This document shows positions 14,922 to 54,060 of a stretch of 64,000 bases of DNA, in pieces (position 1 is the stretch's first letter; the number at the start of each line of letters is the position of its first letter). The stretch spans positions 620,001-684,000 of the forward strand of contig NZ_PDJD01000001.1 of assembly GCF_002563925.1 (NCBI RefSeq), given 5' to 3'. Under the pieces are notes generated by a model, which was given only the letters and a program-made list of their open reading frames with translations, did not search any database and had not been told where the DNA came from. Position numbers and translations under genes: made by a program. Source of the DNA: Serinibacter salmoneus. Lineage in GTDB: Bacteria; Actinomycetota; Actinomycetes; Actinomycetales; Beutenbergiaceae.

Positions 14922-15012
14922 GCCGAGCGTGTGGTTGCGCAGGGATTTCTTGCCTGCGCAGTGCGCAAGGGCACGCTCGGCGCGGGGGCGGAGGCGCAAG
15001 GGCACGCTCGGC
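14922..15012. repeat. 31-bp-period intergenic repeat family, locus 1 (one direct, two inverted copies)
   Basis: A copy of CGAGCGTG..GTTGCGCAG reads on the plus strand at 14922-14942. Two identical copies on the minus strand (plus-strand reading GCGCAAGGGCACGCTCGGC) start at 14963 and 14994, exactly 31 bases apart. The plus copy follows the SURF1 stop in sense; the minus copies follow the ABC exporter stop in sense. Direct and inverted copies can pair into a hairpin. The second locus of this family is at 53827-53976. Confidence 0.8.
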
Positions 15013-23266: not shown

Positions 23267-23310
23267 CCGCGAGGTGGTTCTGCAGGCACTGCGAGGTGGT
23301 TCTGCAGGCA
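23267..23310 (+). repeat. 22-bp tandem repeat after a stop codon, locus 1 (two copies)
   Basis: Two back-to-back 22-bp units (23267-23288, 23289-23310) with core GCGAGGTGGTTCTGCAGGCA differ at one base. They begin 9 bases after the glycosyltransferase stop and read in its sense direction. Confidence 0.85.
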
Positions 23311-23316
23311 CAGCGC

Positions 23317-27347: not shown

Positions 27348-27692
27348 ATGGACGTTGCCATCGGGATTCTTGTCGCCATCCACATGATCGGCTGGGCCAT
27401 CGTGCTCGGCGGCTCGCTGGTGTCGGTGCGCGAGCCGAAGATCCCCCTGGGGATGCTGCACGGTGCGCTCACCGCGCTGATCGCCGGCGCCTTCGCGGCG
27501 TTCCTGGCCATCGCCGCGAGCGACGGCGGCGGTCCGGACCACATCAAGCTCGCGGTGAAGTTCATGATCGCGCTGGTCATCACCGGCCTGGTCTGGTGGG
27601 GCGGGCGCCGCGAGAAGGTGGAGCGCAGCTTCGTCATCCTCATCGCGGCCCTCACGGTGGTGAACATCTTCATCGCCGTGCTCTGGCGCTGA
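27348..27692 (+). CDS. Small four-helix membrane protein
   Basis: This 114-residue hydrophobic protein has four predicted membrane helices (about 3-24, 34-56, 66-82, 91-112) and short loops, including the conserved-looking MIGWAIVLGGSLVSVREPKI and HIKLAVKFMIALVITGLVWWGGRR. I do not know a function. It has its own leaderless-type promoter 26 bases after the response regulator. Two 22-bp repeats lie directly after its stop. Confidence 0.8.
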   Translation: MDVAIGILVAIHMIGWAIVLGGSLVSVREPKIPLGMLHGALTALIAGAFAAFLAIAASDGGGPDHIKLAVKFMIALVITGLVWWGGRREKVERSFVILIAALTVVNIFIAVLWR

Positions 27693-27697
27693 TCACA

Positions 27698-27740
27698 TCG
27701 CGAGGTGGTTCTGCCGCCACCGCGAGGTGGTTCTGCAGCC
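27698..27740 (+). repeat. 22-bp tandem repeat after a stop codon, locus 2 (two copies)
   Basis: The core CGCGAGGTGGTTCTGC starts at 27699 and again at 27721, a period of 22. The pair starts 7 bases after the stop of the preceding membrane protein gene and reads in its sense direction. A weaker, diverged match (CGGGAGGTGACCCCGCAG, 28249-28266) follows the next gene's stop. Confidence 0.85.
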
Positions 27741-27758
27741 CTGAGGGGGCGCTGACCG

Positions 27759-28241
27759 ATGCCGTGGTGGGGTGACCTGCTCGTCGCGCTGGCGATCGCC
27801 GTCGGGCTGCTCGGCTCGGTGCTGCAGGTCCTGCCCGGCTCCACCCTGGTGGGGACCGCGGTGGCGATCTGGGGCCTCGTCACGGGCGGCACCCTGGGCT
27901 GGACGACGGCGATCATCGCCCTGGTCCTCACGGCCCTGGCCTGGGTGATGGGGTACGTCGTGGCCGGCCGGTACCTGCGCAAGCGGCAGGTCCCCGGGCG
28001 CACCATGCTCGTGGGTGGCCTCCTGGGCATCGTCGGCTTCTTCGTGATCCCCGTCATCGGGCTCTTCGTGGGCTTCGTGCTCGGTGTCTACGCGATGGAG
28101 CGGATCCGGCTCGGGGCTCACCAACACGCCTGGCGCGCCACCCTCGCCGCGATCAAGGCCAGCGGCCTGACGATCCTCGTGGAGCTCTCCTTCGCCCTGC
28201 TGATCGCGGGCACCTGGGTCGTGGCGCTGATCCTGAGGTGA
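27759..28241 (+). CDS. DUF456 family membrane protein
   Basis: This 160-residue protein matches DUF456. It has a first helix pair with the family-typical LLGSVLQVLPGSTLVGTAVAIWG (residues 17-39), further glycine-zipper-like helices (LVGGLLGIVGFFVIPVIGLFVGFVLGVY, about 83-110) and a C-terminal helix. The family's function is unknown. It lies in the same direction as the preceding membrane protein, with the 22-bp repeats between them, and is closed by a terminator shared with the convergent ABC-2 genes. Confidence 0.85.
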   Translation: MPWWGDLLVALAIAVGLLGSVLQVLPGSTLVGTAVAIWGLVTGGTLGWTTAIIALVLTALAWVMGYVVAGRYLRKRQVPGRTMLVGGLLGIVGFFVIPVIGLFVGFVLGVYAMERIRLGAHQHAWRATLAAIKASGLTILVELSFALLIAGTWVVALILR

Positions 28242-28272
28242 CACCGCTCGGGAGGTGACCCCGCAGACAGCG

Positions 28273-30379: not shown

Positions 30380-30500
30380 CGCGGCTCCTTCCGCTGGACG
30401 GGTGGTGATGACTCCACCGTAGGAACTCCCGGGGTTCGGCGCCTCGGCCTCGCGGCGGATTGTGGTTCCTCCATCGGGAGGGGGAGGCCGGGCGCTTGGG

Positions 30501-30600
30501 TGGGCTGCGCCGTCGGGTGGGCTGGGCGCTCGGTGGGCTGCGCCGTCGGGTGGGCTGCGCCGTCGGGTGGGCTGGGCGCTCGGTGGGCTGCGCCGTCGGG
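30501..30600. repeat. Perfect 50-bp tandem duplication with 17/16/17-bp sub-repeats
   Basis: Positions 30501-30550 and 30551-30600 are identical. Each half is three variants of TGGGCTG(C/G)GC, starting at 30501, 30518, 30534 and then 30551, 30568, 30584. The run is G-rich on the plus strand, with clusters of GGG. Confidence 0.9.
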
Positions 30601-30614
30601 CGGGGTGGCTGCTC

Positions 30615-31784: not shown

Positions 31785-31839
31785 TCCGCGAGGTCGTTGC
31801 GTCACCGTTCGTGATCATCCGGCACCATCTCGCATGACG

Positions 31840-31872: not shown

Positions 31873-31915
31873 GGTCTGTGCGCACCTCTTGTGGAGGCCG
31901 GACCCGTGAGGGGGA

Positions 31916-31976
31916 CAGAACTGCCTCGCGGTGGGGACAGAACTGCCTCGCGGTGGGGACAGAACCGCCTCGCGGG
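31916..31976 (-). repeat. 22-bp tandem repeat after a stop codon, locus 3 (almost three copies)
   Basis: Two identical 22-bp units (31916-31937, 31938-31959) and a partial third (31960-31976) read on the minus strand with core CCGCGAGGCAGTTCTG. They abut the aceB stop at 31978-31980 and run in the aceB sense direction, beyond which lies the hairpin terminator. Confidence 0.88.
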
Positions 31977-51961: not shown

Positions 51962-52076
51962 TAGACTCGTCCCGGGCCGTGACTGGCGAGCCGTCACTGC
52001 GACAGGGTGGAGAACCACCGGGGAGCGGCCTGGTGCCTGACCGTCACCTCGTGCGCCGATCGCCTGGGCGCGTGGG
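51962..52076 (+). promoter_or_regulatory. purH promoter and ZTP (pfl) riboswitch
   Basis: The -10 box TAGACT (51962-51967) is followed by an RNA matching the ZTP/pfl riboswitch. The conserved 5' element GTGACTGGCG is at 51979-51988, its GTGAC pairing with GTCAC at 51993-51997. A hairpin GGTGG-agaa-CCACC is at 52006-52019, and the 3' subdomain GCGCC...CGCCTGGGCGC is at 52053-52071. In this family ZTP/ZMP accumulation (low 10-formyl-THF) turns on purine and folate genes, and location before purH is typical in actinobacteria. The purH ribosome-binding site AAGGAG (52088) follows 16 bases later, so control could act on translation or termination. Confidence 0.88.
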
Positions 52077-53826: not shown

Positions 53827-53976
53827 ATCGAGCGTGGTGTTGCGCGGCCCCTTCCTCGCCGAGCGTGCTGTTGCGCAGCCCCTTCCTCGCCGAGCGTGCT
53901 GTTGCGCCGCCCCTTCCTCGCCGAGCGTGCTGTTGCGCAGCCCCTTCCTCGCCGAGCGTGCTGTTGCGCAGCCCCT
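53827..53976 (+). repeat. 31-bp tandem repeat array, five copies
   Basis: Units with core CGAGCGTGCTGTTGCGCA start at 53827, 53858, 53889, 53920 and 53951, exactly 31 bases apart; the first differs at several bases and the last is partial. They run in the purH sense direction in the 299-bp gap between purH and the next gene. There are no unique spacers, so it is not a CRISPR. The same core with the same 31-base spacing occurs at 14922-15012. Confidence 0.93.
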
Positions 53977-54060
53977 GCGCGTGCGCCCGCGGCCTAAGCA
54001 CCCGCTCGGCGAGCAGGTCAGGCAGCAGCAGCAGCGCAGGCGGCGTCCAGGACGGACGCG

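Follow-up and report, generated by a model that had tools for sequence, protein, structure and literature searches.

REP-like repeats are known in detail, chiefly from proteobacteria. Mycobacterial interspersed repetitive units (MIRUs) are actinobacterial intergenic tandem repeats that adjoin stop codons; their units are tens of base pairs to about 100 bp long and follow the direction of the gene. The cyanobacterial STRR and LTRR tandem repeats, scattered over intergenic regions, belong to one clade and have periods of about 7 and 37 bp, and we know of no reported placement of these repeats at stop codons. Plasmid replication iterons are direct repeats of about 22 bp that lie two DNA turns apart, are bound by protein and form a single origin beside the initiator gene. 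The placement of REP elements relative to genes has been documented: copies between convergent genes lie no more than about 20 bp from either 3′ end, copies between unidirectional genes lie near the upstream 3′ end, and some copies are intragenic (PMC3733652).

Here we describe a family of 22-bp tandem repeats found in the window, a 64,000-nucleotide stretch of Serinibacter salmoneus DNA. Like REP, BIME and REPIN elements, the family has more than 100 dispersed short extragenic copies in direct and inverted groups and, like REP elements, it is placed at gene 3′ ends, favours convergent gaps and avoids divergent ones (REP side: PMC3733652). Unlike REP elements, it is actinobacterial and has a strict head-to-tail period of 22 bp, with at least two units per array, and its units are not consistently palindromic; the consensus, GCGAGGTGGTTCTGCAGGYACC, has neither the tag of the GTAG family nor that of the CGTC family of REPs, and the array-bearing genomes contain no RAYT. 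Since a consistent palindrome, a GTAG or CGTC tag and a RAYT are all missing, we call the family REP-like and not REP. With MIRUs it shares the position of actinobacterial intergenic tandems at stop codons, but its units are 22 bp long and show no significant strand rule. Like STRR and LTRR, it is clade-bound, intergenic and dispersed, with another period and sequence. Like iterons, it consists of direct repeats of about 22 bp with two-turn spacing, and protein binding is predicted here from the GCGAG skeleton and the period; unlike iterons, it is found next to unrelated genes at dozens of places on the chromosome. We found no description of such a 22-bp element in the searchable literature. 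The preliminary description of this DNA had stated that no named element fits, which seems to hold for the details of the family, whereas its placement is the one published for REP elements (PMC3733652).

Results

Three arrays in the window

The arrays of the window, the genes beside them and a possible degenerate unit are as follows.

23269..23312, + strand: array 1, two units of 22 bp (GCGAGGTGGTTCTGCAGGCACT, GCGAGGTGGTTCTGCAGGCACA); sequence, TRF score 87, exact core, chain search
27700..27743, + strand: array 2, two units of 22 bp; sequence, TRF, exact core, chain search
31908..31973, − strand: array 3, three units of 22 bp, variant GCGAGGCAGTTCTGTCCCCACC; sequence, TRF score 123, exact core, chain search
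31788..31801, + strand: possible degenerate single unit GCGAGGTCGTTGCG, weak; three mismatches to the core, CGCGAG box present, 3 bp after the ohr stop codon
22047..23258, + strand: GT4-type glycosyltransferase gene, ending before array 1; Pfam PF00534/PF13439, gene call
27384..27692, + strand: 102-aa ORF, ending before array 2; gene call, without Pfam match
27759..28241, + strand: DUF456 gene, after array 2; PF04306
31362..31784, + strand: OsmC/Ohr gene (ohr), convergent partner at array 3; PF02566
31978..33603, − strand: malate synthase gene, 3′ end toward array 3; PF01274

Array 1 fills the gap between convergent genes, starting 10 bp after the TGA of the glycosyltransferase gene. Array 2 separates two codirectional ORFs, with the TGA of the 102-aa ORF 7 bp ahead of it and the DUF456 start 16–19 bp beyond it; array 3, whose unit variant is locally amplified, begins 4 bp after the TAG of the malate synthase gene, which is convergent with ohr. 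All seven exact matches to GCGAGGYRGTTCTG in the window fall inside these arrays. The tandem 22-bp units that the preliminary description placed at the three loci are real and exact. It had also proposed two diverged single copies. Since matches to the core with up to three mismatches number 68 in the window against 33 expected, the unit-like copy after ohr (31788–31801) is only plausible; the copy proposed after the DUF456 gene (28249–28266) scored nothing and is unsupported.

Copy number and unit make-up in the own genome

The core GAGGYRGTTCTG occurs in 155 exact copies on the own 3.27-Mb chromosome (G000), compared with 3 for the reversed control; as a 22-bp pair it occurs 93 times exactly, compared with 0 for the reversed control. 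About 200 units emerged from a profile scan of own-genome stretches totalling 1.23 Mb, which contain all 155 core copies. These stretches were picked around arrays, except for one contiguous block of 400 kb and six stretches that served as controls; the sample from the relative G006 comprised 780 kb, mostly contiguous. With a tolerant box search, 63 arrays of 2–8 units were delineated, of which 60 lie outside genes. Genuinely solitary units are rare, and the isolated hits are mostly chance matches in coding DNA. The unit is a GCGAG box plus 17 bp, exactly 22 bp, and near-identical units are common to some 52 loci. Variants private to one array, such as the TCCCC type at 31908–31973 and the TTCGG type at 366 kb, indicate local amplification. 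Several arrays have a diverged unit type, GCGAGGCNCTCCCGTCCC, ahead of their main units and in phase with the 22-bp period (e.g., C1:1706556, 2301577 and 2727680); it is possibly an older subfamily.

The arrays (39/63 and 26/49) showed no replication-strand bias beyond that of genes, and origin-proximal enrichment was weak (KS p=0.04). No 22-bp arrays were found on plasmids or viral contigs. A collection of 84,980 species, from which near relatives may be absent, gave no hit to the exact tandem and one isolated hit, in a Bacteroidetes MAG, to a wider pattern. A CRISPR nature has no support, as an array repeats the 22-bp unit as a whole, with no unique spacers in between.

Distribution among relatives

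Arrays of 22 bp with the CGCGAG skeleton were found in 5 of 24 Beutenbergiaceae genomes, belonging to four genera. CGCGAG triples at 22-bp spacing numbered 62 in the own genome, 91 in G001, 59 in G006, 90 in G007 and 4 in G005, with at most one in the reversed control. The other genera of the family had no triples, the rest of the order was at control level, and G004, congeneric with G006, had no arrays. The unit sequences are wholly different: GCGAGGTGGTTCTGCAGGYACC in the own genome, GCGAGGCCCTTCGGGTCCACTC and GCGAGGGGNTTCTGCACCACCG in G006, GCGAGAGG types in G001, and GCGAGAGGAAGTCCGTCCTTTC and others in G007. Despite these differences, the four genera have the GCGAG box and the 22-bp period in common. 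In the own genome and G006, unit positions 1–6 and 10–11 are 89–100% identical and the others down to 43%, figures that are partly circular because the box itself was among the search criteria; arrays in G001, however, were initially detected by lag, with no motif involved. G006 carries two unit subfamilies side by side, GCGAGGCC.TTCGGGTC and GCGAGGGG.TT..GCACCACC, and the two are sometimes found face to face within a single intergenic region (2050495/2050634).

Placement beside stop codons

Gene calls came from a codon-hexamer predictor that we wrote for the analysis, not from an annotation. When merged, the own-genome arrays outside genes give 53 blocks, and those that could be classified comprise 28 convergent, 22 codirectional and 2 divergent ones; the regions of at least 40 bp available to them were 107 convergent, 376 codirectional and 146 divergent. 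A stop codon lay within 15 bp of 16 of the 22 codirectional blocks in the own genome, where random placement predicts 5.4, and of 14 of the 18 in G006 (4.8 expected), or 30/40 against 10 when the two are pooled. With 60 bp or 100 bp reserved for the downstream promoter, the excess in the pooled genomes was kept (17/22 versus 6.2 and 12/15 versus 4.6). Thus, the placement beside the stop codon is real, and the position of the arrays in 3′ flanks is strongly supported. The closeness of units to stop codons that the preliminary description had noticed goes far beyond chance in both genomes. Arrays at orthologous gene ends of G000 and G006 coincided in eight cases, an overall excess (p=0.009) that was gone within context classes; we therefore do not claim that arrays are retained at orthologous ends.

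Orientation relative to genes

Single-orientation codirectional blocks were 13 sense and 6 antisense in the own genome and 6 versus 4 in G006, a mild pooled sense excess (19:10) that is not significant. Counted array by array, the sense:antisense ratios in codirectional gaps were 17:9 and 14:13. In convergent blocks, the head or the tail of the array was nearer the stop codon in 13:11 (own) and 7:8 (G006) cases, 20:19 pooled. Antisense arrays also touch stop codons, tail first (e.g., CTGCAGGtca). The preliminary description had held that units point the same way as the gene that ends beside them, which is correct for the three window arrays and does not extend to the genome (19:10; convergent, 20:19). 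When stop distance and strand were tabulated over the genome and a relative, as it had suggested, strand was random-like and distance was not. An orientation-bound signal at message ends is not supported, there being no significant strand bias genome-wide.

Hairpin terminators, pair geometry and folding

At convergent ends (own genome and G006 pooled), stems of at least 8 bp were present at 4 of the 42 ends with arrays and at 64 of the 221 without (p=0.007). Ends with arrays have little free sequence left, and the contrast is weaker against length-matched controls. We regard this as a hint that arrays substitute for hairpin terminators at convergent ends. Given this mutual avoidance of arrays and hairpin terminators, the arrays may have a role as terminator or insulator. 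The arrays themselves gave no support for an intrinsic terminator, with no conserved hairpin in single arrays and no T run in the unit; inverted pairs, a minority of arrays, could form hairpins.

Head-to-head pairs in the own genome have a 17-bp spacer in three of four cases and 16 bp in the fourth, which sets the boxes about 22 bp apart, and tail-to-tail pairs in G006 mostly have a gap of 4–7 bp. The sequence before the first unit tends to C-N-T-(T/C)-C in both genomes and differs from the internal flank. Over twelve unit types, the RNA folding energy of tandem units was not consistently lower than that of permuted units and varied by type. The pair geometry and the lack of consistent RNA folding indicate an element acting at the DNA level. 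A conserved RNA hairpin has no support, as folding was not consistently better than that of permuted units.

Copies inside genes

Three of the 63 own-genome arrays, each of two units, lie within long genes whose reading frame is intact; the gene names are our reading of the sequence.

C1:2301285-2301324: linker of a predicted ABC-F-type ATPase gene; frame kept
C1:2348121-2348160, opposite strand: predicted prolyl-oligopeptidase-type peptidase gene; frame kept
C1:2494289-2494328: inter-domain linker of a predicted LigD-type ligase gene; frame kept

The ABC-F and LigD arrays encode a similar peptide, REA..PRGGSAG, and sit in variable linkers where relatives have other sequence. Frame-kept copies in variable linkers favour spreading combined with a filter of tolerance.

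Other elements of the genome

A second extragenic family is the palindrome GCCGAGCG-N44-CGCTCGGC, with an outer length of exactly 60 bp (n=14); additional direct copies spaced by 31 bp extend it to 91 and 122 bp. It occurs in the window at 14922-14981 and 53829-54010 and at about 20 more intergenic loci in the fetched own-genome stretches. Its matches were 22 intergenic and 2 coding, compared with 0 for the reversed control, and none was intergenic in the G006 stretches. This family is more REP-like than the 22-bp family, and homology of the 22-bp unit to it was not significant (P=0.38). The window also contains a ZMP/ZTP riboswitch (RF01750) at 51969-52076 (+), which scores 53.6 bits, above the gathering score, and a tandem repeat at 30498-30604 with periods of 17, 33 and 50 bp (TRF score 207).

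Discussion

The explanation we favour, and consider somewhat probable, is a propagating, REP-like extragenic tandem-repeat family that is tolerated at gene 3′ ends, with a putative DNA-binding or mobilising protein maintaining its box and spacing. The number of copies, their period and position, the restriction to one clade, the conserved skeleton, the intragenic copies and the lack of a significant strand bias were all observed directly; to these the explanation adds mobility, a trans-acting protein and a selective filter, which we infer. Units would spread around the chromosome, and tandem duplication would expand and homogenise arrays locally; arrays would persist beside stop codons, in either orientation, where they may do least harm. 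The box and its 22-bp spacing, about two DNA turns, outlive the complete turnover of the remaining unit between genera, which points to a candidate trans-acting protein that binds or mobilises the repeats as DNA. Propagation is supported by some 52 near-identical loci, the wholesale unit differences between genera and the intragenic arrays. As to partners, the RAYT Y1 transposase (PF01797) was found in none of G000, G001, G005, G006 and G007, while the control was positive in 5 of 14 reference genomes; TnpB-type proteins were absent from array-bearing genomes, among which only G000 had RVT_1. RAYT, reverse transcriptase and TnpB do not co-occur with the arrays and were rejected as partners. 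Counting against propagation with tolerance, these searches yielded no mobilising enzyme, and the tightness at stop codons and the avoidance of hairpins exceed what mere tolerance strictly requires.

Those two features instead suit a bidirectional 3′-end element, in which a protein on phased boxes would act as a roadblock terminator, insulator or supercoil-handling site that replaces the hairpin terminator. The tight stop-adjoining placement in both genomes, the rarity of hairpins at array-bearing convergent ends (4/42 versus 64/221), the presence of at least two units in nearly every array, and the box and 22-bp phase, kept across genera and recurring between head-to-head boxes, are all consistent with such an element. 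We nevertheless consider it rather unlikely, given that close relatives, including G004 in the genus of G006, lack arrays, that arrays occupy only 13–18% of convergent pairs in the stretches examined, that some sit inside genes or, like the one at 27700 in the window, in a short gap between codirectional genes, and that the hairpin contrast weakens at matched free length. In an extended, unlikely form of the idea, a Beutenbergiaceae-specific protein would read helically phased GCGAG boxes as an orientation-independent terminator or insulator replacing hairpins, and protein and repeat would coevolve fast, yielding genus-specific units.

Local homogenisation, private variants and the weak selection on array sites would also fit a passive by-product, namely slippage-made tandems drifting in non-coding DNA with no trans-acting recognition. 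Slippage alone neither disperses one near-identical unit to dozens of loci nor holds one box and the exact period in four genera while the rest of the unit turned over, which makes such an origin quite improbable. Least of all do we expect an RNA element on the sense strand at mRNA 3′ ends that would serve in processing or stability or as an intrinsic terminator. All three arrays of the window are sense and codirectional blocks lean mildly that way (19:10), but the strand bias is significant in neither genome, the folding energies of the twelve unit types are not consistently below those of permuted units, and a sense-strand 3′-UTR signal was rejected on the orientation counts of both. The preliminary description had offered a dedicated 3′-end element or a propagating repeat; the 3′-flank position and propagation hold up, and the sense-strand signal falls on strand and folding.

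If the arrays do serve as terminators or insulators, they would mark the ends of transcription units. The family is non-palindromic, with a strict 22-bp tandem period, and it turns over completely between genera of actinobacteria, including Beutenbergia cavernae, with one box and its spacing kept; it bears on how REP-like families without a RAYT spread. The protein that reads the box, and the use of repeats at convergent ends in place of hairpin terminators, are now testable.
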